Shown: one piece after another, positions 12,526 to 62,607 of the stretch
Numbering within the stretch: position 1 is the first letter of the stretch
How the letters are laid out: every line of letters starts with the position of its first letter
NCBI RefSeq assembly: GCF_000204055.1
Contig: NW_006768787.1
Span: 951,095 to 1,015,094, forward strand
Length of the DNA stretch: 64,000 bases
DNA from: Melampsora larici-populina 98AG31
Taxonomy: Eukaryota > Basidiomycota > Pucciniomycetes > Pucciniales > Melampsoraceae
Reading direction: 5' to 3'
The notes under the pieces: model-generated
Databases searched by the model: none
Told to the model about the DNA's origin: nothing
What the model saw: only the letters and a program-made list of their open reading frames with translations
Program-made: the position numbers and the translations under genes

Positions 12526-15500
12526 TTATACTCGATTGACCCACTTATCCAATTGATGTTGATAATGTTCGATCCACTGTGGTATTTTGCTGTTGAGAAT
12601 TGCCTCCGAAAGTAGCTGACCGTATATTGCAGGGAAGGGAACTTCTTTCACATTTGTTTCGAGCGTTACAAAATGATTGCCATTGAGGAAGGCAAGTATG
12701 ATGGGATCATAATTGTTTGGTGGTGTCCGATAAGGAAAATACGTGTAGCAGTTGACCACATTAGGATCAAATACAATGACCGGACGGTTGTAAACACTTG
12801 CAATAACGTATCCCAAGTACGGCATGCGCAACCAGAATTCCTGGCTACAAGTATAGCCTTGAGGTCCAAGTCTTACAAGGAGGTCTTCAATCACCTCTGT
12901 GGCAAAAGTTTTGACCACTCGACTCTTCACTCGCTTGGTCTGCATTCCAGGGGCAGTAGATATAAGCCGTTCATGGGCGTCCCGAAATGAAATGAGCTCC
13001 TCACAAAGAGCGCTTCGCACCGAAACATATGAATCCTCATGATATATATTGATAGCTGCAGCGATGGCGTAGTAACCACAGTTACCGTAAGCTGGTGGAT
13101 TGTACACTGATTTGATAAAGGGGATGATCATATGAGGTAATTTCTTCAACAACTTCCGTTCTTCTGGCCCGATCTTGTGAGGAGAGATGTTTTTGGAACT
13201 CGAAGCGCCTGTAGATTTGGAAGTTGAAACCTTATCTTGAGTAGCTATATCCTGAATATCATTTTTGACTATTTCAAAAGGTTCATCTGGCATTGGAAAC
13301 ACTACTGATCCAAACGCTCGGCTGCCTTCAAGGGTTTCTCGGACCTTAGGATCGTCTCGTTTCAAATTTAAATCTTCACTAATCAAGCTAAGAGAAAGTT
13401 CAGGAATAAGAACTTGTCGGACAAATAAATCCGGAGTGAGCGGAGCTGATTTTTGTGAAGTGAGATGAATATCGGACTTTGGATCCAAGAGGAATAGTGA
13501 TTTGAGGGTTCGAACAATGATTTCAAACCCCTGATAACCATAACTGACAAAGTCATTCAGAAAACATATCAGCACACGAAGTAGAAGACAACAGTGAGAG
13601 TAGACTAACTATCCAGGTTGTTCTACTTCGAAGTGAGCCATCTCTGCAGGAACCATACGGTGACCTTTTCCCTTGAATTTTTGCTTCGTGTCTAAGAAGT
13701 AAGAGGAGGATTCTTTTGTTTTCACTATGTAACTCAGAGTAGTGCTATGGTTTCTGATGCGACTATGAAAGAAACTTAGTTAGTTTGCAATTACAAAGGT
13801 CGGTTTATACTGATTTGTTTGAATGAACAAACCCTTCTAAAGCACCAAAGTCAATGCTCGTAGGCCATCCCTTGCTAACTCCAAGTGGGATGATTTGTAG
13901 TTCGGCTTCATGTAAATGACAAAAGTCCGCCGTTTGGGTAAACTTTGGGCCAAAAAAGCAAAAGAATGAAGTCAACACGTCAACAACAACCAAAATCTAT
14001 GAAGACAAAGATTACTGACCGGAAGAGACATAGCGCCTGGACGTCCTATTCCCTTGCTAATGTTCGGCATGGCAAGTAGCTTAGCTTTCAACAAAGTCAG
14101 TTTGTTTGAAGGATGCTCAGGGAGAGGTTCATCGCAAAATGGGCACAAGTTTTTCTTCAAGTTCTGATTCTGATTCAGAGGATGAATTGCCTTCATCTTG
14201 CTCTGATTCAACATAGTTCTCGAGTTCGGACTCTGAAGAAGTTTCTGTAAGATTTTCAGAGACGTCTGATTCCAAAACCGAGGTCTTGAGAATGTGTGAG
14301 GCGTCTGAATCGGAAGTTGATGGCTTGAGAAGAGCTTTCTTGGTTTTGGCAACTTTGCCGCGTTTTGAATGAGAGGCAGAGGGGGTAGGAGCACTGGATT
14401 GAACCTGCGACAGCCGAAGGGGGCATGTGGTGATTTTGTGACCTCCAGTTGAACAAAAGCTACATTTCCCAACACGAGGTTTCTTAGCGGCTTCTTTGGC
14501 CTCAAATGATGATATCCATCGGCCTTGTTGAGATTCAGCCGGTCTTTTCTGATTAGCTTTTGGGCGTCCTCGGTTGTTTAGTTTGACTTCGGCGTTCAGG
14601 ATGGGCACCAGGGAATAACGACTAGATTTGAGTAGGGACAACTCGGAAAACACTTTACAAAGTGTGTGTTCAGGAAGTTGCAAAAGGAGATTGAACTTGG
14701 ATCTTGCAGCAGCAATTAAGGCTTCGTGGTTGGCGGGTGGAACATCCATGTCAAGCTTCCATTGTGAATGAATTGAATCGGGAGATATATAATCGTGGTT
14801 GTCTCGAGCAATTGCCAGTTCGTGAGAACACGGAATGCCCCAAGAGCCTCGAAACGTGTGAGAGCAAGTTGAGTTGAGCGAGTCTGGTAATAATTCGTAT
14901 TGAGACTTCAATTTCTTGAGTGCAAAGTGAGATACTACTCCATTTAATTGTTTGAAGAAAACTGGAACTCCTTCAAGGGTTTTGGTCCTTTCAATTCCTA
15001 CCAATACGTTGATCTCTGTCATTTGATGGTCCTCGAATCGCATAAAAGACTGAAAACAAGTGACAAAGTCATTGTTCCGCCCGTCGAGGAATCGTTTAGC
15101 ACAATAGTGACTTCCTTTGACACGAGAAGTAGACGAGTTACCGAAATGAGGGGTTTTTGAAGTGAATAGAGTTACAAACTTTTCTGTGCGATTCAGCCAA
15201 GTATTTTCAAGGTAGCTGAATACATTATGAGCTTTGCCAATCTTAGCCACGGCTTCGAGGTTGGCATCGTACTCTTCAGTTGTTTTGGAGGCAACAAACG
15301 CATTCCAGACCTTCATAAAAGCAGTCCATTTGGGTTCTGTAAATTTACTTTTACAGTTTTTCGCTATGTTTGTGTTGATATGCCAGACACACAAGATGTG
15401 TGCTGCCTCAGGAAAAACCGTACCGATAGCGTTGATGAGAGCCTGTTCTGCGTCAGTCGAAAAAGTTTTGGGTAACTCGACTGTTGAGTTTTCGTCTTCA

Positions 15501-17247
15501 TTCTGAAATATTATCTCCTTCAACTGAGTCAAGGCCCATTCATATTGAGGTTCCTTCTCACTACTCATGAAACACATGGCCACAGTGAATGACTTGTGAG
15601 TGTTTGTTGTCCCAACAATATGTAACAGAGGTAGATTAAATCGATTTGTTTTGTAGGTGCAGTCCAGACTGAGGACGGTAGGAAATCTGCGAGCTAGACG
15701 AATCGCCGAGGGACTGGCAAAAAATAAATTTTGAAGTGTTCCATCCGCTGAGGTGAGTGTACGATGCGCCCAATGACTAGCGGATATGAGATCAAAAAGT
15801 CCCTGGACTGGAGTGCGTCCATTAAGCCACTTATCCCGAAACCAAGCTCGTACATTGTGTATGTCGCGGAGAAGTGGACGAGATCCTGGATCAACGTCGA
15901 TCAAATTTTGGATTTGACCAGCTCGGCAGCCAGTAGATGATAAAAGATTGATCTTATGAAGCGTTTCGGGTGGGAAGCGACGATAGATGGCTAAGTTGTG
16001 GGGTTCGTCAAAGGGAGGGTGGTTGTGACCGTGTTTGCTTGTATCATTGTGATCGTGGGTTACAACCCATCAGTCAACACGTTGGCGGTAGTTGAGTGAA
16101 ACTTCAAATAGACATCCGGTTTTCTTCGAAGAGGTTGTACGTTTGGTTGCTTTTGATTTGACTCGGTTGCCAAGTGCACATCTGAGATAGATTCGAATTG
16201 TGTGATTATGTTTGGTCTTGTGACTCTTGATAGCCAAAGCGTAACCTTGATGTCGCGCGACGGCATTCAGATACATGACTCCATTCTCCATTTCAATGAA
16301 GTTCTTCCCGATTTTGGGTGATAGAAGCAAGCGAACGGGTGTTTGACCTGCAAGGCATTCAAAATATGTCATGTCAGTATTTTGAACTAAGTTTTCGATG
16401 GTATGATTATAAGAGACTGGTTCAACATACCAATGGCAGGCCAGTCGTCGTCTCTCTCAGTAGGATTTTGAGCTAAAGGATCCGCATCGTCTTCTGCGTT
16501 GTTAATAATAAGTGTAGGTTGTGTAATAGCAATTTGATTCGGGTTGTGGTTGTTTGCATCAATGACCGGAATGTTGTTTGAAGTCACAACTGGTGCGATT
16601 GTAGGAGTAGGATTTGGGTAATTTGTATTGTTGTTTGGGGTCAAGACTGATGGATTGATGGAAGATTTGGTGGTTGAATTGACTAACATAGAAGAATCGG
16701 TTGAATCTGAGGTACTAGCAGAAGCAGAGTTAATGGGGCTGTTCAAGTTAATCGAGGGACTGGCTTCTTCGAGAGTTGAAATACGTTGACCACTGAAGTT
16801 GTGTGACTTGACAGGAGGGTAGTTATGGGATGACGATACATTTAAAGATGGCATTTGGGGATATGCAGTTTGGTGCCACTGAGGCTCGAAACAATGGGGT
16901 CCAGGATGATGTGACGGAGCAGTAATGGGATGATACATGAAGGGAGTGTTCGCATCATGCGGAGCTGTTAGTTGATTAACATCTCCATGCGCAAACATCG
17001 AGCGATGATAAGGAAACGGTGGATAAGGGATTCCGGGAGGAGGGTACCAATAGGAATTGGGGAATTGATGGTGAGGGTGAGGTTGAGCGTTTGTATAACT
17101 ACTTGGAGGTGGTATAAATGGGGGAATGTTGATCAAGGACGGGTGATGTTGTGTGGGGTAGGGATTAATGGGATGGTTGTTAAACGGGTGATCCACTCCC
17201 GAAGTTGAATTTTTCGGAAGTGGGGGAGGTGGGGTTTGGTTGGACAT
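12526..17247 (-). pseudogene. MULE transposase fused to RTC4-like and OTU protease domains
   Basis: Exons join as 16431-17247, 16347 to about 14020 (with a frame change near 14,160-14,280, perhaps a ~46-nt intron), 13833-13942, 13610-13762 and 12526-13543, about 1,460 residues. Order: Pro/Asn-rich N terminus; FAR1-type DNA-binding module (LNAVARHQGYALAI); MULE core (LDCTYKTNRFNLPLL, STDAEQALINA, HILCVWHIN); SWIM-like zinc site (WGIPCSHELA); CCHC knuckle (CSFCSTGGHKITTC); RTC4-like region (CPFCDEPLP, FCHLHEAEL, IDFGALEG, PGYYGYQGFEII); OTU cysteine protease with Cys in YGNCGYYAIAA and His in LNGNHFVTLE. The PGYYG junction forms only when the GTTAGT...CAG intron is removed, which argues for one polypeptide. 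An in-frame TGA at 16070-16072 breaks the DNA-binding module, so this copy is probably dead. Confidence 0.75.
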
Positions 17248-19891: not shown

Positions 19892-21655
19892 ATGATTAGT
19901 GCCAATGATAGAAACAATGTACAAGTTGAATTTAATAGAATAATTTCAAACCGAATGCCCCAAAAGAGAGTTTCAAAAATTGAGATCATACCAAAGAAAT
20001 GGCCGACTGAAATTAAGTGTGAGATGAATATAGATGAGTGGAGGAAAGCGCTTAGAAAGGCTAGCTTAATAGACAAATTCAAGGATGTTTTACATGGTTT
20101 CGAATTCGGATTCGATCAAGGCATACCTCAGCATCGGGTTTTAGATCTGCCTTTCTACACTCCGAACAATCATTCATCTTCAGAATTAGCGGCAGAAAAA
20201 ATTCTTAAAAGTATGAAACAAGAAATCGAAAAGAAGAGGATGTTTGGACCATACACTCATGAGGAGGTAATGAAGGTGTTCTTGTTCTTTAGAACAAACC
20301 CTTTGGGAGCTGTAGTTAATGGAGACGGGTCAACCAGACCCATTAACGACTTATCCTATCCTAGGAACGACCCTCAAATTCGTTCTGTCAATTCTTTTGT
20401 CAACGCTGAAGATTTTAAAACAACGTGGGATGATTTTAACAAAGTTGCAAAACTCTTCAAACTGTCAAAAGAACTATTTTTACTCGCCTTGTTCCATTGG
20501 GAAAAGGCTAACCCTAAGATCCCAACCTTGATGGAACAATGGAAATACTTGATGGTTTTAAGCACAACTGGTGAAATATTCCTAGATACTAGGATTACTT
20601 TTGGAGGAGTTGCAGGTTGTGGATCTTTTGGTAGACCAGCAGATGCTTGGAAAAGAATCATGATTTCGGAATTTGATTTAGTAACAGTATTTCGTTGGGT
20701 TGATGACAACCTATTTGTAAAAAGGTTAGGATCGTCAACAGATATGATGGATATAGTCAAACGATCACAGCAACTAGGTGTCTTAACAAACGAGAAGAAA
20801 TGCTCCAAGTTCCAGTACAAACAGAAATTTATCGGATTTGTCTGGGACGGATTTCATAAGACCGTCAAGCTAACAGAAGAAAAACTGGCTATACAGATCG
20901 CACAAATTGAAGAATTCCTTGCGCCAAATGCAACATGGAACTACAATCAGGTTGATGTTGTTGTAGGGAGGCTGTGTCACGTGTCATATCTTCTACCACA
21001 ATTGAAATGTTATCTTTGTAGTTTGTATGGATGGAAAGCGAGATGGGTTCATCATCAGGCGAAGCAACATCTACCTGAGGATGTGTTGGAAGACGTATCC
21101 TTTTGGCTGTCGACGCTGAAATCTTTTAAGAATTTACGATTGATCGCAACACCAGACCCAATCGAGATAAATTGGGTAGGGGATGCCTCGGATTGGGGCA
21201 TCGGAGTTCTGATTGGTGTTAAATGGATCCAGTTCGAAGCCGATGAAAACTGGAGAAACTCAGGCAAACACCCTAGAACGATTGCTTGGTTGGAAACCGT
21301 CGCAATACAATTAGGACTCCTGATGGCAATGAAATTAGGTTATGGTAGAGGAAAGAATTTGATCGTTTGGACAGATAATACGACCAGTCAAGCCGCAGTA
21401 ACCAAAAGGAAATCAAGAGATAAAGAGGTTAACGCTGAGTGGAAAATTATACAGCAAATCTTGATTGATCATCAAATAGACCTTGATCTGAGAAGAGTTG
21501 TCTCTGAAGATAACTTGTCTGATAAGCTATCTAGAGGCAGTAGGGATATCGAACTCCCAGATGGGAGCGTTAAGAAACACGACTTAAAAGATCTTGTGAC
21601 ACTTGACATGCCCGAGGATTTGTTAGGCATTTTATTTCCTGTGGTCACACCCTGA
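19892..21655 (+). CDS. Reverse transcriptase-RNase H of the DIRS-like element
   Basis: An uninterrupted 587-residue ORF from ATG 19892. The RT part shows GSTRPINDLSYPRND, the GGVAGCGSFGRPAD region, the catalytic VDDN box (FRWVDDNLFV), and NEKKCSKF...FIGFVWD typical of DIRS-type RTs. The RNase H part follows: Asp in WVGDASDWGIG, Glu in LETVAIQLG, Asp in VWTDNTTSQAAV, and SEDNLSDKLSRG near the end. There is no protease or integrase. It is the only intact ORF of this retrotransposon copy. The A+T-rich codon use matches the gag-like part and is unlike the more GC-rich recombinase ORF downstream. Confidence 0.85.
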   Translation: MISANDRNNVQVEFNRIISNRMPQKRVSKIEIIPKKWPTEIKCEMNIDEWRKALRKASLIDKFKDVLHGFEFGFDQGIPQHRVLDLPFYTPNNHSSSELAAEKILKSMKQEIEKKRMFGPYTHEEVMKVFLFFRTNPLGAVVNGDGSTRPINDLSYPRNDPQIRSVNSFVNAEDFKTTWDDFNKVAKLFKLSKELFLLALFHWEKANPKIPTLMEQWKYLMVLSTTGEIFLDTRITFGGVAGCGSFGRPADAWKRIMISEFDLVTVFRWVDDNLFVKRLGSSTDMMDIVKRSQQLGVLTNEKKCSKFQYKQKFIGFVWDGFHKTVKLTEEKLAIQIAQIEEFLAPNATWNYNQVDVVVGRLCHVSYLLPQLKCYLCSLYGWKARWVHHQAKQHLPEDVLEDVSFWLSTLKSFKNLRLIATPDPIEINWVGDASDWGIGVLIGVKWIQFEADENWRNSGKHPRTIAWLETVAIQLGLLMAMKLGYGRGKNLIVWTDNTTSQAAVTKRKSRDKEVNAEWKIIQQILIDHQIDLDLRRVVSEDNLSDKLSRGSRDIELPDGSVKKHDLKDLVTLDMPEDLLGILFPVVTP

Positions 21656-21961
21656 TGTTTCAGCTTTGGTGATTTGTAGTTTGCTCTCATCGCTTCTATT
21701 TGTTTAGGACATATCCATTCGACGTCTTTCTTGCTTCAGTTTAGATAGATTACGTAATCTGTATTCTTAGCAACTTTTTCTTTTTGGAGATTAGCTGAGC
21801 ATGGAAATGAAATATTTAATATTGGTCTTGACGCGACGCTGACCTGAAGTAGGCCTGATACAGTTGTGAGACAAGTACCAACGTTTTAATCATTTGTTTC
21901 GGCTTTCCCACAGAGTCACTACTTCACTCAAGAATAGGAATCATCGCCTTCACAATACGAC

Positions 21962-23020
21962 ATGTCTTCATCAATCCGTTTAGAAACCGTGGCAGCTTTC
22001 TTGTCCGGAGTTCATCCGCCCTCTTACCCCAGTTCGCTCCAGCTACACCTGTTGCACGGTTGGAAGATCAGCACTTTACGAAGCTATAACGGAGCCGTGA
22101 AGAAGTTCTATACCTTCTAGAACAAATCAAACTCTAGGCCCTTTAGTTTGTCTGCGACCCCAAATGACATCTACTGGTTTTGCTGGTGGGCCGGACGAGT
22201 AGACGGTGAACTCACCAATCACGACATCTCGTCGAAAACTTTGGCCAACTACCTTTCGGGATTGAAGGCCTGGCATCTATATCATGACCTGCCTTACCCT
22301 CATACTACCACAGAGAGGGTAGCAGTCATGTTACGAGCGTCCGCACGCGCTGACTCCCTCGTACCTCAGAAACCGGCCAAACCGGCTGTCATGTTGGAAC
22401 ACATCCTGATGTTGTATATGAAATTGGCGAACGGGTCACGGGCAGACTCTGCCGTTCTAGACGTAGCAATCTGCGCATTTTGGGGTCTCGCTCGTTTGGG
22501 AGAGCTGACTTATGACTTCCGCGTCGGCAAGCCTGCCTGGCTTAACTCGGTACTCTGTACTGACATTTTGCAGTCACCGTCAACACAAGGAACCATCACA
22601 CTAGCGGTGCGCGGAGCGAAGACAGCGAAGGCCGGCCAACCACAACCCATCCTGTTGAACGCGCAGCCAAACATGCTCTGTCTGGTGGCGGCCATACATC
22701 GAAGATTAGCATCAGCTGTTGAACCGAGCAACTCCCTCTTTGGCTATTTTGAAGGCGACGTCCGTATTAACCTCACAAGGACTGCCGTTGTTCGGAGATG
22801 TAAGCAGATATGGGACGCTGAAGGTCTCACAACTTTATCGGGTCACTCGTTTCGCGTTGGAGGCGCGTCTTTGAGAAACGCCCTGGGCGTGGATCATTCC
22901 GACATCCAACGTTTAGGCCGCTGGACATCCGATTGTTACCTGATATATCTCAGGGAATATTCGGCTGAGGAGTTGCGACGCGCATCCTCAATCATCTCTT
23001 TGATCAACAATTCTCGTTGA
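21962..23020 (+). pseudogene. Tyrosine recombinase (YR), one in-frame stop
   Basis: The gene most likely starts at ATG 21962, and the frame is continuous to 23020 except for TAG at 22118-22120. The part before the stop (WKISTLRSYNGAVKKF) is the helical core-binding domain of phage-integrase-like recombinases. The catalytic part holds the first Arg in GLARLGELTYD, the HxxR pair in SGHSFRVGGAS, the LGRW motif and the nucleophile Tyr in CYLIYLREYS. Downstream of the stop there is a 290-residue ORF that still has all catalytic residues but lacks the N-terminal clamp. TAG is one transition from CAG. In DIRS-type elements this enzyme integrates the circular cDNA. Confidence 0.8.
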
Positions 23021-23756: not shown

Positions 23757-26700
23757 TTATTCTCTCGGTGGTTGCCTGCCTGGAGGCAGAGGTTCATCTG
23801 TGATTGTGGCCCAATTCCAGCGGCTTTTAAACCGCCAGGTGTTATTGCAGTACTCTGCAATGGCTTTGAAAGCTACGGGTTTGTTGAGTATTGATGTATT
23901 GAGTTGTAATTCTAGGGCTTTGAGGTCTTGTTCTAGTTTCTTGCGCTCATTGTTGAATCTGTTGCATATAAGTAAATAATGCTCGACTGTTTCAATACCT
24001 TCTTGGCAATCGCAGCTTGGGTCTTGTGCCTGTGCAAATTTGGAGAGATAGTGGTTCAGGTGGACGTGCCCTGACCTGAGCTGTGTGATAATTCCTATTG
24101 AGTGTTTTTGAAGTTCTGTGATATGTTGTAGGTGAGATTTTTGTTGTGGTTTGTGACCTAGTCGCTTTAGGTCGTTGGGGTCGGTGATCTCTGAGTTTTT
24201 TGTTTGCCATTCTTTGATGGCTGATATAAAGCTTTGATGCGTTGGGGGTAACTCGGAAAGTGCTTGGTAGTTTTGTTTTTGCTTTCTTGTTGGCGATTTG
24301 GTCTACTCGTTCGTTGCCGTAACACCCGCGTGACCTGGGCACCAGCGGATATTTACGCGCATGTTGGGGAAGGCTGCAAATAAGTAATTCAGACGTTTGT
24401 AAGTTTCTTTTCTATCCTCAAGGGAGGTGATGGGGAGCTTGTTAGAGCGTAGGTCTTTGATAACCCCTTGGTTATCAAGTAGAATAGTTGTCCGCCTTGT
24501 GTGTATCGAGGCAGTGCTTAAGGCGATGGATAGTCCCATTTGGACTCCTTTGTATTCAGCTTGGTAGATGCCATGGGTCCTCGCGGGTCCTAGGTGTTCG
24601 GCGTGTGATTTGTTGGTGTTTTTGCACCAGGCAGCGGCTGCCGTAGTGCGTTTTGGGATCCTGGAGCCGTCTGTAAAGATGACAACGTGTTCAATCGTGG
24701 CGGTGAGTTTGTTGGCTTCAATCTTTGCTGTTGTTTCATTCTCTTGAATGATGGTCGAGTAATTTGTTGGACGTGTCAATATGTCGCTAGGGTCGAGTGG
24801 GATCTGAAGAATGAATTCCTCCAGTTCTTTGCTGATGGTGTGTTGAAAGAACCGATGAAACGGGTTATGGTGGCATTTTGGGTTGGAATTTTGTGCCTGT
24901 TTGACGAAATCGTGAATGGGGGAATGAGAGGGCTTTGTCAGTGCATTCGCCATGAAGTTCATGATCTTGCTTTGAAGCCTGATTTTTGTTGGCGTGAGAT
25001 TAGCATCATGCGTTAAGAAGACGGTCGGGGTTGTTGGTAGTGCTCCCAACGCTGCCCGTGCGCATATGTTGTCAATGGTTGTCAGGTCTTTGGTGAAGTA
25101 TTGTGGCGGTTCAAACGGCAGCCAAGCGGCTAGTCCGTAGTCGAGTGCTGTGTGTATAGTTGTGGTGATGAGCGTGTGCATGAGCTTTGGAGATATACCC
25201 CACTCAGACTTCGAGAGCGTGGTTAAGAAACCGGCTTGTTGGCGTCCTTTTGCAATGACGGCTCGCCTGTGTTGGGAAAAGGAAAGTTTATCATCAATGA
25301 TAATACCCAGCCATTTAGCTTTTTTCTCTGGTGAGATGTTTCTTCGGTCAACAAAGCTAATAGTAGGGGGATCTTCTACTTCCTTTGGGCTGAATATTAT
25401 CCAAAAAGTTTTCTTGACATTGAAAATGGCTCCGTGGTCTTGTGCCCAGACGTTCTGTCGGTACGCTAGCATTTGCATTTGAGACTTCAGTTGGTGTTTG
25501 TCGTTTGCCGTGGTCAGAAGGACTACGTCGTCGATGAATCCTAGTGCTGTGGCGTTATCAATATTGTCAGTAATCTCTAGTAGTCCATTGTTGTACAATA
25601 AATAGAGAAGAGGCGATAGTGGTGATCCCTGCGGTAGGCCGTGGGTGAGTTCAAAAGGTTTTGAGTCGAAACCGTTGAAGGAGAGGGTTGTTGTGCGGTT
25701 TTCGAGGAAGTTGTGGAGTAAGTTGATGGTCTGGCTATGGAAGCCCTTTTTCTCGAGGATGGTCATTAACCTGGGGTGGTGGACAGAAGGGAATGCGGAT
25801 TTCACGTCAGCAAAAAGCGCACCCACTACTTTACCTTTTGTCCACTCTTTTTTGATCCATGAGACTAGGTGTGTTAACACTTCATGGCCTGATTTATTGG
25901 GTCGTCCACCATAGTGGCCTTCGTGGAGTAGCCTCTTCTTTTCTACCTGTTCAGAGAGGTGTTTTGTGAGTAATTTTTCGTAGAGCTTACTTAACGTGAG
26001 CAGTAAGGCAATTGGTCTGTAAGCTGATGCTGCCGTGTAGTCGGGTTTGCCTGGTTTGGGGAGCATAACGGTGCGTGCTTGTTTCCATGCTGCAGGTATT
26101 AGGCCGGTCTCTGTGATTTGTAGGAAAAGGATTCTAATGTGATTTTTAGCTTTCACCCAAATTCTTTTCCATACCCAGTTTGGTATCAAATCTGCTCCTG
26201 GCGCTTTGAGTGGTGGAACACTCATCACTACTGATTTAATGTTTTTGTCCGTGAGGTAGCTGAAGAAGTCGGGCATGGTCGGTTCTGTGAGGCGAGATGT
26301 TGTTTCTACCGGGAATTGGATTTTCTCCGATTCCTGGATCCTGCACGGCGCGGTGGCCACGCAAGTTGTTCGAAAGAGTATCTCTGCCTTCTCTTCATTG
26401 GTTGAGCAGATCTCTCCTGAGTTTGATATCAAGGTTTTGACTAGCGATGATGGTTGTCTACCTGAAGCAAACTTTTTTGCCTGAAAAAGTGTCTCATGTG
26501 TCAGTGTGGAGAGATACGTTTTCCAGCTGTCCTCTTTCATTTTGTCTACTGTTTTGTTGAAAAGATTCCTGGCCTTTCTATATTCTTGTTTGTTTTCGTC
26601 CGTTTTTTCTGTTTTGAATTGTCGGTGTAGGCGTTTTGCATCTTTTCTCAGTGGGTCGAGGATTTCGGGCCTCCACCAGTGTTTGTGTTTGCCTGGTGGG

Positions 26701-27652
26701 GGCCTGTTGGGTGAGTTGTTGTTTAGAGCCGTTATTATGGCTTCTCGTAAGTTTGTGTCGAATGTGTTGATTTCTTCTTGGGTTGTTAGTTTCTCTATTT
26801 TTGGGAGAGTCATGGTTAGTTTGTTAAGCAGGTCAGGTGTAGCCACCTTGTTCCAGTTTTTCCTGCGCTGTGGTTGCTGATTGTTAATTTTTTGGTCGTG
26901 ATTTTTTGTCGTGAAGGAGGTGATAATGGACTGGTGATCCGAGAAATGATTTGTATGGTCATCTGTATCAATAAAGCATGTTTGGATGACATCGTCGAGT
27001 TGTTCATTAACCCAGACGAGATCAATGGTCCTTTTGTGGTGGTCGAGTTTAAGCCGTAAGTTGGTTCGCCTATTGGGGATCTTAGGCTGAGGTCCCATTT
27101 GGACATCATTTCAATAAGATCGTCAGCTGATTTGTCATTAGTTGTGCTGTGCAGGGGATTCCAGACTGGGGAGTGGAGATTCGCGTCGGTAACTACAATT
27201 GTTGGGAGTAGTTGTAGTTCTAGGGGTAGGCCTCGCATCATCTCGTCCCATGCTTGGAATCCGGAAAATGTGTTTGGTGCATTGTATACATTTGAGATGA
27301 GTAAAGTGAAGTTATCAATAGTTATGGTGCACGCTGATATGTCGCGTGAAGGTGTGGTGATTGGATTGAGGGCCGCTTGGAGGTCACGTCTTATATAAAT
27401 GCATGATCTTGGCCGTGATTGTTCGTTTAGTGCTGCGGGTGTGGGGCTGATTAATGTCCAGTTGGTTTGATTTGGCGGTAGGTAGTCTTTTTTATTTACA
27501 TGGGGTTCCTGAAGTGCTATGATGGAGAATTCATTAGTAAGATTATGGTTCAATAGGGAGTGGATTACATTTTGTGAGCAATGGCAGTTCAATTGAAGTA
27601 TTGCTGATGTGTCTTTTGATGTTATAATTTCGCGCAGACGTTGTTCTATCAT
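23757..27652 (-). pseudogene. LINE ORF2: endonuclease-RT-RNase H, frameshifted
   Basis: ATG at 27652 opens the endonuclease (LQLNCHCSQN, ALQEPHV, TDANLHSPVW). Near 27,057 the frame shifts by -1 and the SDHQ end of the endonuclease, RT and RNase H continue in the 24,303-27,098 frame. RT motifs are ADVKSAFPSVHH, LPQGSPLSPLLY and GFIDDVVLL. RNase H motifs are FTDGSRIPK, AEYKGVQMG, LLDNQGV and WCPGHAGV. A second shift near 24,318 separates PGHAG from GNERVDQIA, and a third near 24,260 is needed to reach the C-terminal CDCQEGIETVEHYLLIC finger, ending at TAA 23757-23759. No canonical slippery heptamer was seen at 27,057, so lesions are more likely than programmed shifts. Confidence 0.82.
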
Positions 27653-29325
27653 TTAGATAGGTTCATGTCGTTGCTTTCTAAGATTACGATCTTGGGTGAT
27701 CCGCTAGGGTTGTGTGGTGGGAGGCTTTCTGCTATCCTCGTGGGGCAGGATGGGCTGAATGGGTGGTGTATGATGTCGGCCGGGTTTGAAGCAAAGAAAG
27801 CTTTGAGGTTAGTGTTAGGTTCAAGCATAACTTTCTTTCTAGCACAAGCCGTGCATTTCATCTCAGTCTTCCCCTTTTGGGGGCACGTGTGTGAATGATG
27901 TTTGTCCCCGCAGAAGGGGCAGATGGGATCATTTGGGCATGAAGGCGCTGTGTGTCCTGGCTTTTGACAATTGTAGCATCGTCTCGGAGGTGGACCACTC
28001 CTGAGGGTGAGGTGCTTACCGCGCCCATGCCATATCTTGTCGGTGATACATCGTTTTACCTGTTCTTCGGTTTTTAAACCTATTAAGATTGATGAGTGCC
28101 TTTTATTAGGGTCTTCTAAGGCTTTGGGATTGAGCCATCTGACAAAAAGCATATCTTTGAGGAGGTCTCCATTACATATTTGGAGTTCTTTGCGGTGATC
28201 TTCAATGTTCGGATCAAACGTTGTGGGTATGCCATTTACGATAATTTCATGACGTTCTTCTTTCATTTTGAGCGTTCTGGAGAAGCCCTGTACCCATGTG
28301 CGGGGGAGTTCTTTTACCTTGGATGCGTGAGCAGCGGTCTCAAAGATGATATCAATGTCATTCGACGGGTGTCGTCGTACACTTTTGATTTCAATAGTCG
28401 ATTCTTCGTCCGGCTTCATCTTGATGTTATACGCTTTGAACGCTACAGTAAGCGCTTGAATGAGCTTGGCATTGGAAAGGCCTGGATGTGTGATCTCTGA
28501 TCCAGGCTCATGGACCAACGTTATAATGTTGGTTGCTTTGGGTTTTGGTGCCATCTTTGGCGCTTGTGGTTTAGCCGAGTTGGTTTTTTGGCTGGTTGCT
28601 GTGTTTTGTGGGGCATGTTTTGACGCCGCGAGCGCATAAGAAGGGATTGTGGGTCCTTTCTTTTGTTGCAGACTTTCTACTGCCGATGTGAGGAGCGCCA
28701 TTTGCTCTGAAAGCGCCTCCAGTTTGTCATCTGTAGCTTTGCCCTTAAATATGATGGGACGGCTCTTCTGATCAGAACCGGTGAGCGCATCCGGCGTGGT
28801 AAAGTTACGTCGAGCATCCTCGAACATAACTTGATCGTAGACAGCTCCTGTTAATACCAGGATGTCTGCCGCCGTTCCGACATCAATCAATGTCTTCTGG
28901 GCCTGTTTTGACTTGTTCGCAAGCGGTAAACCGGCTTTAGCGACTTCCAGGAGCTTACTAACCAGCTCCTTGAGAGTTCGGTTTTCTGCTCCGCCTGGGA
29001 AAAGATTCTGCATGCGGTTCGTCCTAGGACTCCCCGTTAACTCAGACGCTTGGTCTGCTGCGATTGTGCCAGGCGTGTCCGTCCTGGATCTCTTCTTGGC
29101 GAAGTTTCCTAAGTCCGATGATTGGATGGAGAGTGTTTGAGATACGTTTTGACAGACACTAGCTTTGGTAGCTTTGTCAAAAACGAGAGGGGGGATAGTC
29201 GATCTAGGCTGTTCCTGGCGACCAACTGGGTTGATAAACGCGTTGGACGCGTCGCGAGTTGCAGAAATGTTCTTTGGAACTTTCTGCTTCTCTTGGCCCG
29301 TATCCGACACGTCGTCGACCTCCAT
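27649..29325 (-). CDS. LINE ORF1, gag-like protein with zinc knuckles
   Basis: A single 558-residue ORF. The N-terminal half is Ser/Thr/Lys-rich with a helical stretch (LEALSEQMALLTSAVESLQ) that could oligomerise. The middle resembles an RNA-recognition-like fold found in LINE gags. The C-terminal part carries CYNCQKPGHTAPSC (CCHC), CPFCGDKHHSHTC and a further CTAC pair. The stop overlaps the start of ORF2 as ATGA (27649-27652), an arrangement suited to termination-reinitiation. The protein would bind element RNA. The frame is intact although ORF2 is broken. Confidence 0.82.
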   Translation of the reverse strand: MEVDDVSDTGQEKQKVPKNISATRDASNAFINPVGRQEQPRSTIPPLVFDKATKASVCQNVSQTLSIQSSDLGNFAKKRSRTDTPGTIAADQASELTGSPRTNRMQNLFPGGAENRTLKELVSKLLEVAKAGLPLANKSKQAQKTLIDVGTAADILVLTGAVYDQVMFEDARRNFTTPDALTGSDQKSRPIIFKGKATDDKLEALSEQMALLTSAVESLQQKKGPTIPSYALAASKHAPQNTATSQKTNSAKPQAPKMAPKPKATNIITLVHEPGSEITHPGLSNAKLIQALTVAFKAYNIKMKPDEESTIEIKSVRRHPSNDIDIIFETAAHASKVKELPRTWVQGFSRTLKMKEERHEIIVNGIPTTFDPNIEDHRKELQICNGDLLKDMLFVRWLNPKALEDPNKRHSSILIGLKTEEQVKRCITDKIWHGRGKHLTLRSGPPPRRCYNCQKPGHTAPSCPNDPICPFCGDKHHSHTCPQKGKTEMKCTACARKKVMLEPNTNLKAFFASNPADIIHHPFSPSCPTRIAESLPPHNPSGSPKIVILESNDMNLSK

Positions 29326-29400
29326 GACGGTAGTTATCGCGTGAAAAAGGCGATTCGAGAGTGCGAAAAAAGTTAGGAGAATGAGATTTTGAAATTTGGA

Positions 29401-29694
29401 CGAGTACTTGCGCAGTCACGGACCGGGTCACGTGACTAGTTGCTAATTCGTGGTAAAAGACAGAATCCTTCGGGGGAATGGAGCTTAACAAACCCCCTCA
29501 CCAGCGCGTTCGCCGCGCCCTCCCTCCGGGGTTGAGGGTCCCGAACTCCTGCGGTATGGAAATTGGCCAGTTGGGGTTTGTGTTAAGCGAGATGGTATGT
29601 GAATATGTGTGTAAGTACAACAACAAAACAACCGAACAAAGTCCTTCCCCACTGGCCACGATGGCAGAGTCTGACAGATATTTCACTGATTCCT
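29401..29694. other. Spacer between LINE 5' end and RecQ element
   Basis: GC-richer DNA with no supported gene. It may include the LINE 5' untranslated region. It ends with CTGATTCCT (29686-29694), the left copy of the 9-bp target duplication. Confidence 0.45.
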
Positions 29695-29897
29695 TAAGCT
29701 TAACTAAGCCCCTCTCCCGCGGCTGCGTCCGCGACCTCGGAGAGGGGCTTATCGCAGAGACGCGATTTTCGGCGGAGGACTTCCAAGAATTAAGTACTGT
29801 TAAGTACTTTCTTCAACTTGCCCTCAACACCTCTCCACAAAAAGTCCCAGATACCTTGTATGTTGTTCTTCAAAGAGTTCTACATATTTTGGTACTA
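29695..29897 (+). repeat. Left TIR with internal GC-rich hairpin
   Basis: Starts TAAGCTTAACTAAGCCCC. AAGCCCCTCTCC (29706-29717) pairs with GGAGAGGGGCTT (29739-29750), and CGCGG/CCGCG pair inside the loop (29718-29722 and 29729-29733), so a two-storey hairpin can form just inside the tip. The rest is AT-rich and includes AAGTACTGTTAAGTACTT. Confidence 0.9.
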
Positions 29898-30177
29898 TTT
29901 TCAACACAAACAGACTTGGTTTGCCATTGATGGAGCCATGACCAATTGTGGTCGTTATGTATTCCTGTAACAGCCTAAGATTGGGTGTACAGGCGGCCAA
30001 TCAGATTTGGTCGATTTGTTCTTGGACAATTCGAGACTAATCCAAAACCTGGGTCAAAAGGGTTATGACCTAGGGGCTGTAGGCCTTAGATATCCTAGAG
30101 CAGTAAGTGTTAGGGTGGGCGACCTTTCCAAAGACCCGTCATTCTCGCGCAACACTTTGATTTCACCCAACTACGTC

Positions 30178-32736
30178 ATGATCACTCGCTCTCAAGGAGC
30201 CATATTGCCACCTTCGCCTCATGTTGGAAAGACCTCAGATTCCTCTCCAGCTACCACCAAAGCAACTCTTAAAGGAATCCGACCATCAATCTCAAAGTTA
30301 TTACTGAAGGACAACGATGAAGAGCTGCGTGAAGTCATACTTGAATTATTTTACAACAAATATAACGTTATTGCTCGAATGCTCCAAGTGGACGCGACAA
30401 TCAGTCTAGTTCGAAATCGGGACGTATTTCTCCTTGCAAGTACCGGCTACGGGAAGTCTCGTATACCGGAATTGTTCTTTTTGATGTTTACCAAAGCCTG
30501 CGCTCCAATCATCTTGACTTTGAATCCTTTGGACGCCCTCGGGGACAATCAAGTAAGTTATACTCCTAATATGTCTCTGTTTGCGATTTGACAAACTGTC
30601 CTCATTGCACAGGTTGAAGAAAAGGCTAGACATGGACTATCGGCAATCAATTTGACCCGGGCATCCTTCACTAAAATCGTGTACAAAGAAATTCTCGCAG
30701 GAAAATACCAATTTATTTATGTTGTAAGCCTTCAACATTTAGCCGATTGTGATGTGGTGAAGGTATAGCTAACATATTCTGTTTTTTGTTTGATAGTCAC
30801 CTGAGATTTTTTTGAATAACACTCATTTCGAGCGTCTCTACTTTTCGAAAGCGTTTCAGACCCGCCTGGTCCTCAAGGTAGTCGACGAGGCTCACCTCAT
30901 CTACTGTTGGGGCCTTGCCTCGAGTGGCCGCATCAAGAATCTTCGATGCTTTCAAATTTTGCAAGATCGCACCGCTTTTCGGCCATCTTACGGTAATCTG
31001 ATCGAGCGATTCCTAGCCACCGAATCAGTCCCGACTCTGCTAATGTCAGCAACGTGTCCACCTCGCCATTTCGAACAGATCCTGGCAAGTCTCAAAATAT
31101 CCAGAGATGACATAGACATCCATCGAGGCGAGCTTGTTCGCCCCAAAATACGTTTCATCCGGGTCTCTAACAGACACGGTACTTCATCAATGGACTTGCT
31201 CAAGAAATTTTTCGCACCATCTTCTGTAATAGGTGACTCAGAGCTAGTACCTAGCCTTGTCTACTGTCATACTCAAAACGACACGTATCTAGCTCTAAAA
31301 GCAATCAACTCAGCTCGTAACATCCCAAGTGAATCTCGCAATGGCTTGAGTTCATCGGTCTGGCGATATCACGCTTCAACCTGCCCGATTGACAAGGCTC
31401 GTCGTGCTCTCGACTTTGGAAACGGCAAGTTCTTGATAATGACCTGTACAAACGCCTTAGGTTTAGGACAAAATTGGACTCGTGTGAGAAGGGTCATCAT
31501 TATGGGTCAGCTAGACCCGATGGAGTTATTGCAAATGGCTGGGCAAGGGGGTCGAGACAGACAACCATCGGTGGCTTTTCTAATAGTCAATCAACTCGCT
31601 CAGGCGGACAAGGATAGACTGATGGCTTTACCGCATCAGTCTCAGCAAGATAATGACCAGCATATGCATGCGATGAGCATCACTGACGTATGTTTACGAG
31701 TCGCGTTTGAGGTTCTTCTACGGTGAGTAGTTCGCACTTTGACTCATAATTTCTTACATTATAAATGTCTTATATTGAATTTCATTATAAATCTGACTCG
31801 ACGTTGAACTAGATGTAACTACATCCCTGTGTCCAAAAGCGATCAAGCCGTTATTGCCGAAACTCAAAGGCAGGCAGATGCAGGCATGGCACCATGCCTC
31901 TGCTCGAACTGTGATCTGAATGCGGCAAATTTTTTCCTTGCTCAGCAAAAAAATTTGACCTCTACGAATTTTACTGAGTTGGTACTCAAGAAGGACGTTC
32001 CAGCCAATCAACCCGATTTCAAACTCGCCGCGGAGGATTTGAGTCCTCATGATTCATCACTCGAAACCCAAATGCGTCCGATTCGTGAGGATCATCCTCT
32101 ATACCAAGACATACGGTGGATTCAATTGTACTTGCGCATTCAATCAAACCTGCAGGCGATATTTGACACTGAATATCCTAAAGATTCTTTCTATACTCTT
32201 GACGACCTATTCTCGCCAATCAAACTTTGGACTGTGTGCATCAACTACGATTTTGTTTTACAAGGACTACATTTGGATGATGTGTTTGGTAGCGAACCAC
32301 TGCCAAACACATATGGTTCAATACTTCAAGACATTCGCGCGTGGAAGGCAAGTACTGACTCAATTGCCGTATTGCACCCTTCAGAAGCAGAGATGAGAAT
32401 GTATAACGCAGCCAAGGCTCTCGCGAAGGAGAATGAATCAAAGAAGAACGATGCAAAAAAGAACCAATCCAAAAAGAACGGAAGTGTCATAGTTGCTCCA
32501 CAAAATGACACTGAGATGGTAGCTCAGGTACTCGCTTGGCAGATCTGATCATATATATATATATATCATATTGCTAATGTTTGATTTTCTATTCACTTTT
32601 AATAATGGCTATGCAGGCTTCGACTGCATCAGGCGACCCCTTGACATCAAAAGGTACAAAGAGCAACAAGCGAAAACCACCTCCGTACCAAGGTAAAAAG
32701 GGGAAATCGCCGAAACGTAACAAAACGGCCTCTTAG
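30178..32736 (+). CDS. RecQ-like DEAH helicase (748 aa)
   Basis: Exons 30178-30552, 30613-30723, 30797-31722, 31813-32527 and 32617-32736 join in frame with GT-AG introns. ATG 30178 is the first in-frame ATG; upstream in-frame sequence lacks one. Helicase motifs: I, STGYGKS (about 88-94); Ib, YVSPE across the second splice; II, DEAH (192-195); III, SAT; IV, YCHTQ; V, ALGLGQNW; VI, QMAGQGGRDRQ, a variant of the usual QExGRAGRD. A CLCSNC pair near the start of exon 4 matches the RecQ zinc-binding region. There is no HRDC domain. The tail is strongly basic (SNKRKPPPYQGKKGK), likely a nuclear or DNA-binding tail. RecQ enzymes unwind 3'-5'; here it could process the hairpin ends (inference). The stop overlaps that of the converging gene. 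Confidence 0.85.
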
Positions 32737-35675
32737 GTATCCTCAGGCTCACCTGGCGATTCTTCACGACTCCCTTCTACATCCACCACCTGATCTCCTA
32801 AAGACCCCCATCGGTAACGAGAAACCTCCTTGTTTTTGCGGTCTTGTAGAATGTGCTCTTGTAATGTGTTGGTACCCGTTAAAACGGTATCGGTAAACTG
32901 ACATTTGACGGTGGAAATTTTCGAAGTTATGTATTGATGATTCCAAGAGCGGATAAAGTTGGCGAGTGTCTGTTCTGATATTTGGTGGGAGTGATTCTGA
33001 AAAACCGGCTTAAGTCCGCTGCGAATTTTCAATTGTTGTATCAGCTGTCTTAGCTGAACATTGGGTGTTCAGCGTGGTAATGGAATAAATTGATTCATTA
33101 GTGTGAAAATGTAAAATCCGAGCAATGATTCACTGGAAAATGACATACAAATGTAATGTTGATTGACATAGCAATCAATTTTTCAATCTCTGTTCCATTA
33201 CTCTGGGTTAGAATCCCATCAGTATTCATCCAAAGAGTAACTGGAAAAATACTGAACACTGGTCACTCACAGTTTGGTTGAAATAATGTTTGAGCCAAAA
33301 ATTTTGGTACTCAAGCCAAAGATCATTTCCTACAAAGTGTCCTGGGCGCTGTCCAGATGGAATAAGAATACTGTGCAATATTACTTTTGCTAAAAGCGGA
33401 GGTAGGTCTTGTTCCACAAGGACAAGGAATCTTGTAAGATGTAAAGCATAACGCGGCAGGCCCTTCAAACCATGTGCCATCAAAGCCCACCGTTTCCACA
33501 TGAGCTTCAACCTACCAATATCACCTGCATGTGTGGCACTATCTGCTTCAACCACCGTGGCAAAATCACGAATCCGTAGCCTCAAATTATACCCCAAACT
33601 GTCACCTTTAGTTTTACACGACTTCAAAGAACCAGGGCTGCAAAAATTGTCGTAACATTTATTGATCACTTCCTGGGCAACACCTTCTTTTGAAAGGTCA
33701 GGAGGACTTTCATATTTTGACATGGTCGAGCTATATGTAATAGTTACAAATAAATATTAACAAATAGTCCAAATCTCGATCTGACATAATTAAACAAATT
33801 TTGCTCACGTTAAACAAGATACCAAAGTTGCAAAGTGAACGGAGTGGAGAGCTTTCATAACTGTCCCAAAATCCATGTTACAAGGTAGTTTAGATTGAGC
33901 ACCTTGCAATCCCCCCAAAGCCTGCCATGCTTTCCACGCCCCGGTGTCCTTAGAATCATGGGGATTACCCCAATGGTGAGATAGTATCCCTTGAGCGAGG
34001 TTCCACATGATATGGGATACACCGGGTATAGTCAAAACACTGCTGAGGGCCCCTACATCAGTACCGGCAGGACACCTTTTTTTTCGAAGACTCTCGATAT
34101 TTTGACACGTTCCAAGGTCGCCTTGGACAATTCGAACCCATTTTGACATCGCTTCAAGAGTGAGGCCGCATTGAGATGCAATTTCGTCGAATACCTGCGC
34201 AACCCCGTCTGCCGAGTTGTCGGCCGCGTCCATGAGGCTCATCAGGAACAAATGATGATCGTCCACTGGAATCGGGTCAACTGGAGGTGGCCTTGTTGCT
34301 AGTTTGGGCGAAGGAGTTGTTCCAGGTTTAAGTATATATTTGTACATGACCGTGGCTAGCTGACATTTCAAAGTTGACTCCCACTGGGTCATATCGCTGG
34401 CTTGATCTCGTAATGTATCCAACCGAATCGGAGTATTCTGAGCTTCGGCTAGAGTTTCATGGTAGTTTTTAAGGTGAGTGCTGGCATTATCTTTCGAGAT
34501 GTCTTTATCTAAGCATTTCGGTAAAAACTGAATATAGCCCAATGTCCCATGGAATAGATGGGACACAGTCTCTACACGGGTATTGTGAACCCTTTGTAAT
34601 ATATCGAAGTTGTCAATGCATATGATCGGGCTTATGCTATAAGACTGGGACATAATAGCTCGTAGAGAGGCCTCTCGCACGGTTCTGAGATGATTTAGAG
34701 CCCTTAATGCTGTATCGCGAGAACTGGACAGACCTAGAGTATTCAAGTATTGAAATACTCTATCAGACACTCCCGTCGCGATGAAAGTCAAAGCGTTGTG
34801 CAGCTGGAGCGCGTTATCCCGGTAATTAGACATGTACGAGATCATGCCGCATATTGTGGTCGCAACCTGAAGATATTTCAAACATAAGTTTGAGGACTGA
34901 TGATAAATAGTGAATTAGAAAAAGTACTTGCTAGATTTGCTCGGTCTCTTTCGGCAATGTGTTTGTCTTCTGGTACATACAACATTTCCTCATCATGACG
35001 GGCTTCCCTCTCACCAATGGTTTCAACAGTAAGACCTGAATCATCAATCGGTTCTGTTTCTGGAATTTCCTCTTCCAACGTGTCCCAAACGTTGCTGCGC
35101 GACGCGCCGGCCATTAGAGCTACACGATTATTTGCTCGAAGAGACATTTGATGATACATAAGGTTCCACAAAAAGGGCATTGATTCCCTGATTTTTTTAT
35201 CGCGCGCGTATAATTGACCAAGCTCAAAGAACTCGGTTGTGATCTTCTTTGAACTGTAAAAACTTCGAGGTTTGGACTCGATTTCGTGTTGAATCTGTTC
35301 CTGCGCCTATCACAACCACCATCAATAATAAATATATATGAGTAAAGACAAAAGAACGCGAAGAATGCTCACCTCAGTCAAAATGAATTTGCACCACGCA
35401 GCCCGGCCTTCCTCACTTTGGTGAGTGAGAGTCTTGATTGCACGCACAATCTGAAAAGTGGAATTTAGACCCCTTTCAATACCCCAGTATTGACGACTTT
35501 CTTTCAGAACTGGATTATCCGAACATAAAAAAGAGTAGAAGACCTCTTTAGCGTAGGTCTGATGTTGTTTTGCAGTAGTACATAGCTGCACGGCAATTGA
35601 CTCGATGAAGGGACGCTGTCGAATGTTTCTTTCTTGCTCGATGGGAGGACGCAGGCTGTTTTCTTGATGTTGCAT
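32733..35675 (-). CDS. DUF6589-like protein, candidate mobilisation protein (856 aa)
   Basis: Six exons join in frame: 35373-35675, 34932-35306, 33809-34866, 33271-33730, 33149-33202 and 32733-33053, giving 856 residues. Intron 2 is a GC-AG intron (donor GCAAGT) and the 18-residue exon 5 is easy to miss. Features recalled from the basidiomycete DUF6589 family: PFLWNL near residue 140, a Tyr/Asn-rich helix (SNYRDNALQLHNAL), an acidic IDNFDILQRV motif (about 309-320), FHGTLGYI shortly after, HAGDIGRLKLMW (about 647-658), RPGHFVGNDLWLEYQNFWLKH, and the SNGTEIE...LRQLIQQLK end. The function of the family is unknown. Its place as sole partner of a helicase inside TIRs suggests a transposase or nuclease role, with the conserved Asp residues as candidates (inference). 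Confidence 0.75.
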
Positions 35676-35993
35676 CTTTTCACAACGTTAAGTTCTGAAG
35701 GGCAGCCTCCCGCCCCCCTCAGTTGTCAAGCAACAACCTCTCACAATTTTTTTACCAATTTTTTGTGGTCCACACAAGGGCGCGCAACCACAAGAGCCCA
35801 TACATAACCCCACCGTGCTCAGCCTACTAACGAGGCAAAAATAAGACAAAACCCAAATAGGTTTTGCCCGGAATTTTGGAGTTTTGACCCCAATAATCAT
35901 TTCCGGGATTTTTGACTGACAAATACAGCTACACATACAATAAAGCTTACCACACATTCTGCAATCCTTGCTTCAGAGTAAACCACAAGTGTG
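35676..35993. promoter_or_regulatory. Promoter side of the DUF6589-like gene
   Basis: This 318-bp stretch between the start codon at 35675 and the right TIR should hold the promoter and leader of the minus-strand gene. No clear TATA box. Open frames crossing it show no recognisable domain. Confidence 0.35.
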
Positions 35994-36196
35994 TAGTACC
36001 AAAATATGTAGAACTCTTTGAAGAACAACATACGAGATATCTGGGACTTTTTGTGGAGAGGTGTTGAGGGAAAGTTGAAGAAAGTACTTAACAGTACTTA
36101 ATTCTTGGAAGTCCTCCGCCAAAAAACCCGAGTCTGCGGTAAGCCCCTCTCCGAGGTCGCGGACGCAGCCGCGGGAGAGGGGCTTAGTTAAGCTTA
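35994..36196 (-). repeat. Right TIR with internal GC-rich hairpin
   Basis: Inverted copy of 29695-29897, with the same hairpin (36141-36152 with 36174-36185). Differences from the left copy cluster just inside the hairpin (around 36120-36140) and near the inner end. It ends AAGCTTA, followed directly by CTGATTCCT (36197-36205). Confidence 0.9.
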
Positions 36197-36205
36197 CTGA
36201 TTCCT

Positions 36206-60120: not shown

Positions 60121-62607
60121 TTAAATGGCACCCTCCCCAATGTAAGCTACACCAGCTCTCTTGTTCAGTTTGTTTGTGAGCCATTTATTTCTCAAATAGA
60201 CCATCTCTTCCAAGAAAAAATTGTAGATGAGCGACAACATGTTTCGGCACATCGAAGCAAAACCACCATACCAAATGTTGGTCAGTTCAGCGGCGGATGC
60301 GTTGAAGATCCATCGACCGTCCTCTTGAATGTCGGGAAAAAGTTTGGGGTCAGTGAACATCTTGCAGAATTGATCGCTTTCTGCGTGAGAGCGGTGGTGG
60401 AACGGATCGACCGGAATTACAGTCCCCTTGAAGTTGGAGGGGTCGGACTGCCCGGTGTAAATATGTTCGGTCAACCTGCAGGCGTTATTGTAAAACACCA
60501 CTTCAGGCATTCCTCGTGGAAAGGTTTCCTCAAGGAAATCCTGATAGAATCATGTCGAGATGAAGAATAAACAAAGAACCGAACAGGATAAGGTGGCACC
60601 AATACCCAATGATAGATAGTTCCATTTCAATTTTCCAATTGAAATCACGAAAAGAAGATATGAATATTCAGATATTGAGATGCTGCTATCGAGTTCGCGA
60701 CGTTGGAATTGGAACAGAGGTACTCACTCTGACGGCGCTCACTGATTCGGCATGGTAGAATGTTTTGCGAGCCAATATAATTCCACAAGGAGCTACAATG
60801 AGCTGGTCATTGTGAGTACGGCTCCTTGATAACACGTATTTCCCGGCGGCCTGCGATTGCCCCCCATCGCGCGCTGCTTCATGGGCCCTTTGCGACTCAT
60901 CAGCTTGTTGCAAGCTCTCCAGGTCGACAAATTGGCCTGTTTCGGCGTCCAGATGCGGGGTAGGATCCGGATGGAGATTTGACCCAGGCCTGTTGAGGAT
61001 TGCAGTAAGGGAGAAGTTACCTTTCACTCTTTCTTTGAAGTTGGCCCACTGTTTGACATGCTCGGGGTCATCGCATGTGTCACTATTCGCGGCAGAGATA
61101 CGAGGGCAGGGTTGGGCTCGGCATCGAGATCCTAGCAACGCAAAGTGTTCTGTGCAGAAACGGTGATTGACATTGGCAAGCTTGTTGGTACACGGTCCTT
61201 CCGGCAGAGGTCGCCCAGAACTTTCCGCTATTTCGCGGAGTTGTTCGGTGGTCGCACTGCAACGCCAGTGACCAATGGTCAAACCATCAGTCACTACCGC
61301 ACGGATAGCTGATGATGGGGATGGAAAAATCGTTGTCAGGTGAAATTTGTTGACAGTAGAAATTTGTTGACAGTAGAGTCGGGGAATCAGCGATACAAAC
61401 ACTTACATTTGTAGAAGCCTTCGCCGGTGACTGGATCCACCCCGTCTGGTAATAATCGAACGCAAGTTGAGAAGTAGTGGTCTCGATATCGTGTGCCTTC
61501 AATCAGCAGTTGATCTAGGTGAGTTTCAATAGCCGACTCAAATCGGATGTTGTCGGTGCCACTAGAGCTGACGACTAGGGTGGTACCTCTTCGGTCGGCA
61601 TGCTTAATCAACGAATGAAGCATCAGGCCATTACGACACACTTCCTCTGACATAGACGGTGTAAATAGTTGATCGGGGGTGAAGGTCGCCGCGGGAGTCT
61701 CGTCTACAAACACCATGTTGTACCAATTCACCAAATTGAAATGAGAGACACTACCCAAATGGTGTCAGTCTCAATTTGTCAACCGAGTGATTCATAATTT
61801 GGGCTTAGCTTACTGTCCTAGCATTTGTAGCACCCGGAACATGTAGGCCATTCGAGTACTCATGTAGTAATGACAGGTGATGTGTAGATAATCCATATCG
61901 CGGCCCAGGTCCTTTGTGTAGTAGTATCGAGCGCTATCTCGGGTGTAAAAACTGGGCCTATAAACGGTGTCGCATTTGGGGTCTGCTATCAAGGGTCAAT
62001 GAAGAGGCATCTTTCTGTGTATGTTTAAGGTAAGGTCTCACGAACTGGAGCAACTGAGGATAACGGTCTGCACTGGGTGCACACCGTCGATGTCATGAAG
62101 GTATCCATTGATCCGAGAGTGCACGTGTAAGGCGTAGGCATCGTCTTTGGAGCATATGACACAGTGGGATAAAGGTGCGCGTAGAAATCGTTCGGGCAAC
62201 TTCGTGGTAAAGTTTTGTTGGAGACCCATATTGCGTATGGAGAGTGTTGGATCGATTCGACACCAGCGGAGTAAGGGGAAAAGCAGTTGCCATAAGTCGT
62301 CCAGAAGGTCGGTGGGGAATTGAACGGATAAGGCCTCCTCAAGGAATGGTAACACAGGGTTTTGATTCGGTGACAGCCGTAAGGAACCACCGGCGCGATG
62401 TTCGACTTCGGCAGAAAGCGATGCAAAGCGGACGAAGTCTGACACCGTGAGTGTTGCGGAGAGGTGTGGTGACCGGTTGATGAGTTGGATGGTAAAATCG
62501 CGTAATAGCATGTTCGATGATGTGGTTGAGGTTGAGTCGATGGGAGTTGTGGTGTGGTGATGAATCGGTGTATGAGGCTTGAGCCGATTGATGTCAGCTG
62601 TTGACAT
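60121..62607 (-). CDS. CxC5/CxC6-type protein associated with KDZ transposons (692 aa)
   Basis: Exons 62046-62607, 61814-61985, 61407-61750, 60728-61308 and 60121-60540 join in frame to 692 residues. The N-terminal part (LTVSDFVRFASLSAEVEH, then SHCVICSKDDAYALHVH and C..DPKCDTVYRPSFY) fits the CxC5 cysteine cluster. AVVTDGLTIGHWRCS, PCTNKLANVNHRFCTEHF and the following Cys pairs fit CxC6. The end (DPFHHRSHAESDQFC, FNASAAELTNIWYGGF) resembles the terminal part of KDZ (Kyakuja-Dileera-Zisupton) transposase-like proteins. All catalytic-looking His/Asp/Cys positions and splice sites appear intact. It converges on the cysteine-cluster gene at 57,369; the two may be parts of one transposon, but no flanking TIRs were found. 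Confidence 0.72.

Follow-up and report, generated by a model that had tools for sequence, protein, structure and literature searches.

Analysis of a 64,000-nucleotide stretch of Melampsora larici-populina 98AG31 (contig NW_006768787.1, positions 951,095 to 1,015,094 of the forward strand), which is called the window throughout, led to a mobile element of 6,502 bp bounded by terminal inverted repeats (TIRs) and a 9-bp target-site duplication. Two genes were identified in it, one for a RecQ-like helicase and one for a protein with the DUF6589 domain; both are spliced, they converge, and together they fill the element. The features, with coordinates counted from the first letter of the window, are as follows.

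29686-29694, no strand: left copy of the target-site duplication, CTGATTCCT, 9 bp
29695-36196, no strand: whole element, 6,502 bp, with near-identical copies elsewhere in the assembly (contigs C50 and C57)
29695-29897, plus strand: left TIR, 203 bp, starting with TAAGCTTAACTAAGCCCCTCTCC
30178-32736, plus strand: gene of a RecQ-like superfamily-2 helicase, 748 aa, 5 exons (30178-30552, 30613-30723, 30797-31722, 31813-32527, 32617-32736)
32733-35675, minus strand: gene of the predicted DUF6589 (PF20231) transposase, 856 aa, 6 exons (35373-35675, 34932-35306, 33809-34866, 33271-33730, 33149-33202, 32733-33053)
35994-36196, minus strand: right TIR, 203 bp
36197-36205, no strand: right copy of the target-site duplication, CTGATTCCT, 9 bp

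A preliminary description of this DNA, made from its letters alone, had reported a 6,502-bp unit with 203-bp TIRs and a perfect 9-bp direct repeat, and all three were confirmed. The TIRs share 95.6% identity over 203 bp each, the duplication CTGATTCCT is perfect on both flanks, and the element starts with 5'-TA. Comparison of the window with Rfam gave no match reaching the gathering threshold. A genome search with the TIR, which the preliminary description had suggested, revealed multiple copies in the assembly (98.3 Mb, 243 contigs). Specifically, at least 41 matches were obtained with the 203-bp TIR as query (best 40 of 119 candidates scored), and a pattern made of its initial 23 bases has 276 occurrences (135 + 141) with at most three mismatches; the reversed pattern, used as a control, has none. 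The two closest copies are also 6,502 bp long and align with the window element without gaps, that on C50 with 99.63% identity (24 of 6,502 positions different) and that on C57 with 99.55% (29 of 6,502). All 22 TIR pairs that were read, selected by nearby ends among the matches listed and not a random sample, are flanked by a perfect 9-bp duplication. They comprise the window element, seven other long elements (6,502, 6,502, 7,293, 6,505, 6,761, 11,993 and 6,658 bp), 13 short ones (607-770 bp) and a 4,101-bp one consisting mostly of N. The 22 duplicated sequences are all distinct and show a weak base preference (C at position 9 in 11/22, C or G at position 1 in 15/22). The short copies retain the TIRs only, and seven of them, each of 607 bp, differ by no more than two bases from the first of the seven. 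Because near-identical long copies occur together with near-identical 607-bp copies, the element is mobile and has been active lately, and the TIR-only copies have moved as well. For a further diverged element (L047) the duplication measures 9 or 11 bp, depending on the TIR start chosen. Additionally, a nested insert is present in the 11,993-bp copy, and its open frame of 1,191 aa resembles by eye a Copia-type polyprotein.

Concerning the insertion event, the C57 copy sits inside an older short repeat, and its joined flanks with a single 9-mer align in one piece through the junction with 10 other loci (88-99% identity). Read base by base, one of these related empty sites (L063) has GCAGAAGGC exactly once, and a second one (L064) has it once with the final base altered. 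Since the 9-mer is single at the related empty sites, 9 bp were duplicated upon insertion. The repeat that hosts them is about 140 bp long, has GGGTCCGTTCGGCTGC-like inverted ends and is present at C57:101398-108268 and at the 10 loci; this family is probably a different miniature inverted-repeat transposable element.

The RecQ assignment of the helicase in the preliminary description was borne out, as the closest sequences in PDB are WRN, RecQ4 and RecQ5 (best E-value = 1.2e-9). A Pfam scan of six frames of the element, from a list of 33, matched Helicase_C with 24.3 bits and DEAD with 17.5 bits, the latter under its cut-off of 26. The protein carries STGYGKS, DEAH, SAT and GQGGRD, which we take to be helicase motifs (Walker A for the first and GRD for the last). 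Most intron borders of the two genes recur in related copies, including a GC-AG intron in copies C13, C3 and C8; in these three, the final intron of the helicase gene has no aligned counterpart.

The DUF6589 domain was detected in two exons of the second gene (99.2 and 97.6 bits); none of the Pfam matches carried the name of an Academ model. Its gene model is supported by full-length rust proteins, because these align over nearly all of the 856 aa (33-35% identity). Conserved in the family are D311, D476 and E640, with H511 between the second D and the E, and we propose these from the alignment as candidate catalytic residues. AlphaFold models of two relatives (P0002 and P0015, about 41% and 35% identical to the window protein) gave Hermes, the P element, ISCth4 and RAG1 as best structural matches, with 9-12% sequence identity in the alignments to Hermes and the P element. 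An RNase H-like fold, for which the preliminary description had proposed to look, is thus predicted in both relatives. Because of the conserved D, D and E and of this fold, the DUF6589 protein is very probably an RNase H-like DDE transposase. It follows the preliminary description in that DUF6589 very probably mobilizes the element and thereby acquires a function; the statement that no recognized transposase is present holds for the name of the domain only. In viral contigs, 70 pattern matches to DUF6589 were found and none was confirmed.

Both genes are retained under selection, in agreement with the co-retention that had been anticipated. Against copies C13, C3 and C8, the ratio of non-synonymous to synonymous divergence (dN/dS, codons with gaps or stops removed) is about 0.10 for the DUF6589 gene (dS 0.9-1.3) and 0.13-0.14 for exons 1-4 of the helicase gene (dS 0.9-1.3), although C3 and C8 are mutually close and the comparisons count nearer two than three. 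The same copies diverge from the window element by 33-54% in seven introns, 27-30% in a non-coding stretch and about 15% in the left TIR. Synonymous sites have reached saturation in copy C28, whose ratio is unusable, and the three near-identical copies differ by 1-4 synonymous and 5-11 other changes per gene and pair, too few to show selection. Sequence identity of the one protein co-varies with that of the other over six elements (r 0.96, from 15 non-independent pairs and single-exon stretches). Genome-wide, at least 104 DUF6589 matches (best 102 of 248 candidates scored) fall into at least 94 loci. A convergent Helicase_C match lies within 8 kb of at least 46 of these 94 (150 of 152 Helicase_C matches used), where chance would give about 2.4% per locus for this first helicase set. 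With the element's own helicase as query (best 60 of 414 candidates scored; 54 places used from 112 rows), at least nine of the remaining 48 loci were added, leading to a convergent helicase at no fewer than 55 of 94, in 53 cases within 4 kb. In five diverged long copies, whose frames of at least 150 aa were judged by eye and without a domain scan, no other transposase was seen. The preliminary description had named three refuting outcomes, namely a solitary element, an empty site lacking the 9-mer and another transposase consistently found between the same TIRs. None of them was seen: further copies exist, the 9-mer stands once in a related empty site, and no such gene appeared in those five copies. 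Two strongly diverged pairs of DUF6589 and helicase genes (L048 on C24 and L049 on C77) have the same convergent layout.

Taken together, the element is very likely an autonomous DNA transposon with a DUF6589 DDE transposase and a RecQ helicase, its lineage being most likely AcademH. The transposase would bind and pair the 203-bp TIRs and cleave the ends, which would then be joined to both target strands with a 9-base stagger, and filling of the gaps by host repair would produce the 9-bp duplication. Catalysis would lie with the DUF6589 protein, and the mode would be cut-and-paste rather than copying. The RecQ-like helicase would have an accessory role and would probably unwind DNA at the ends of the transposon, at the 9-bp target or in the gap-repair step; it may melt the wide 9-bp target. 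The short TIR-only copies would have moved in trans, mobilized by the DUF6589 protein itself.

Reportedly, AcademH is a lineage of the Academ superfamily described by Kojima in 2020 (Mob DNA 11:15) under a title that places it in fungi and animals. The preliminary description had envisaged a new class of DNA transposon, and this was not supported, since a helicase and duplications of 9 or 10 bp are on record for AcademH in the excerpted text of PMC10045372; the class of the element is most likely a known one. According to further excerpts, AcademH occurs in low copy in Basidiomycota, Ascomycota and Mucoromycota (PMC10799480), and Academ stands among the DDD/E superfamilies (PMC9587614). For the mushroom Marasmius oreades, PMC8290104 describes Academ elements that are putatively non-autonomous. 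We regard AcademH as the most likely lineage because the element agrees with it in duplication length, helicase and predicted DDE transposase.

Several observations weigh against this interpretation. With respect to the lineage, AcademH membership is argued from anatomy set against published descriptions and not from the transposase sequence; AcademH is reported as low-copy in fungi in the excerpt of PMC10799480, whereas the family here is numerous. Furthermore, the organism-named DUF6589 relatives among the matches listed, in searches that favor close relatives, are all from rust fungi (Puccinia, Melampsora), and the animal AcademH was not reproduced. Concerning the fold, the modeled structures are those of relatives (P0002 at about 41%, P0015 at 35% identity) and not of the window's own protein, Foldseek gave no match at E ≤ 0.001 (the best, 1.6e-3, being the P element), and a DUF6589 sequence profile had no match in PDB. 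As for the insertion, an empty counterpart of the window insertion was not found in this assembly, where the joined flanks match themselves only, and the 607-bp copy L042 gave no empty site but partial repeats only, with fragments ending near the junction. Two of the three diverged elements fetched whole (L048 and L049) showed no TIR within 9 kb. At no more than 39 of the 94 DUF6589 loci a convergent helicase was not seen; two have one on the same strand and 37 have none at this sensitivity. Finally, two stop codons interrupt the transposase reading of the C50 copy, which also has an altered splice acceptor (the C57 reading has no stops), and in straight translation stops occur in the transposase of C13 (3), C3 (1) and C28 (1; none in C8) and in the helicase of C13 (40), C8 (29), C3 (3) and C28 (1). 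The stops in the diverged copies are partly due to inserts and to exon borders projected from the window.

DUF6589, named for its unknown function and numerous in rust fungi, would become a family of transposases whose candidate catalytic residues are named, and many annotated "hypothetical proteins" could be recognized as belonging to transposons, at no fewer than 94 loci in this genome. With young near-identical copies, TIRs that are clean and an empty site at a related locus, the role of a RecQ helicase in DNA transposition becomes testable. Academ-type elements may be under-annotated in rusts, because 27.5% of consensus sequences were unclassified in a 2025 rust survey, whose excerpted text has Academ in the background only (PMC12210899). 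Apart from the element, the window holds other features. A retrotransposon of the long interspersed nuclear element type adjoins the element on the minus strand (24303-29415); its zinc-knuckle frame lies at 27649-29415, and its reverse transcriptase and RNase H domains lie in a frame of 935 aa at 24303-27110. Further on the minus strand, a MULE transposase domain (91.8 bits) was found in a 646-aa frame at 14129-16069, a CxC6 cysteine cluster associated with KDZ transposases (71.9 bits) at 60686-61402 and an RTC4-like domain (42.2 bits) in a 360-aa frame at 12526-13608. Two long frames on the plus strand at 19892-23020 have no Pfam match (E ≤ 0.001) and appear by eye to be a DIRS-like reverse transcriptase and a tyrosine recombinase.

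Comparison with other systems bears on the lineage. The element could represent a separate, undescribed superfamily, in which DUF6589 DDE transposases of rust-type fungi, unrelated in sequence to Academ and related in fold to hAT and P, would have gained the RecQ helicase and the 9-bp stagger independently. The literature searched contained no link between DUF6589 and transposition, and the organism-named relatives among the matches listed are from rust fungi only. We consider this reading unlikely, however, as AcademH, which the excerpted text of PMC10799480 records from Basidiomycota, matches the element in the length of the duplication, in the helicase and in the DDE-type transposase, and independent acquisition of an identical feature set is less likely. 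The models do resemble hAT (Hermes) and the P element, which are the best structural matches, in an RNase H-like core, a large, predominantly helical segment that precedes the final acidic residue and a conserved H located after the second D and before the E, whereas DUF6589 has GxxH in place of C/DxxH. The hAT and P elements make 8-bp duplications and are not known to carry a helicase. Membership in hAT was set aside on the 9 bp seen in 22/22 pairs.

KolobokH, a fungal Kolobok lineage with a RecQ helicase, shares with the element this helicase, a DDE transposase and an occurrence that the excerpt of PMC9587614 restricts to fungi. It is a very improbable identity, as the same excerpt gives Kolobok TTAA-specific 4-bp duplications and 5'-RR ends, versus varied 9-bp duplications (22/22) and 5'-TA here, and here the helicase is encoded by a gene of its own, convergent with that of the transposase. 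In one Kolobok from a red alga, too, the helicase lies on the opposite strand (PMC9587614). KolobokH was set aside on the duplication. Mobilization by the helicase, in a Helitron-like or helicase-driven manner with DUF6589 as the accessory, is hardly conceivable. The helicase is indeed kept under selection, but the models of DUF6589 relatives show a DDE fold, cutting DNA is beyond a helicase alone, Pfam on the six frames matched nothing except DUF6589, Helicase_C and, weakly, DEAD, and DDE strand transfer is what TIRs together with duplications of a fixed 9 bp typify. Helitrons resemble the element in carrying a helicase and, to our knowledge, have neither TIRs nor duplications; they were set aside on the 203-bp TIRs and 9-bp duplications present here. 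They use an HUH nuclease and single-strand transfer, as the excerpted text of PMC12730594 describes. It is AcademH that the element resembles most, in the helicase, the 9-bp duplication (22/22), the DDE-type transposase predicted from modeled relatives and the presence in Basidiomycota reported in the excerpt of PMC10799480.
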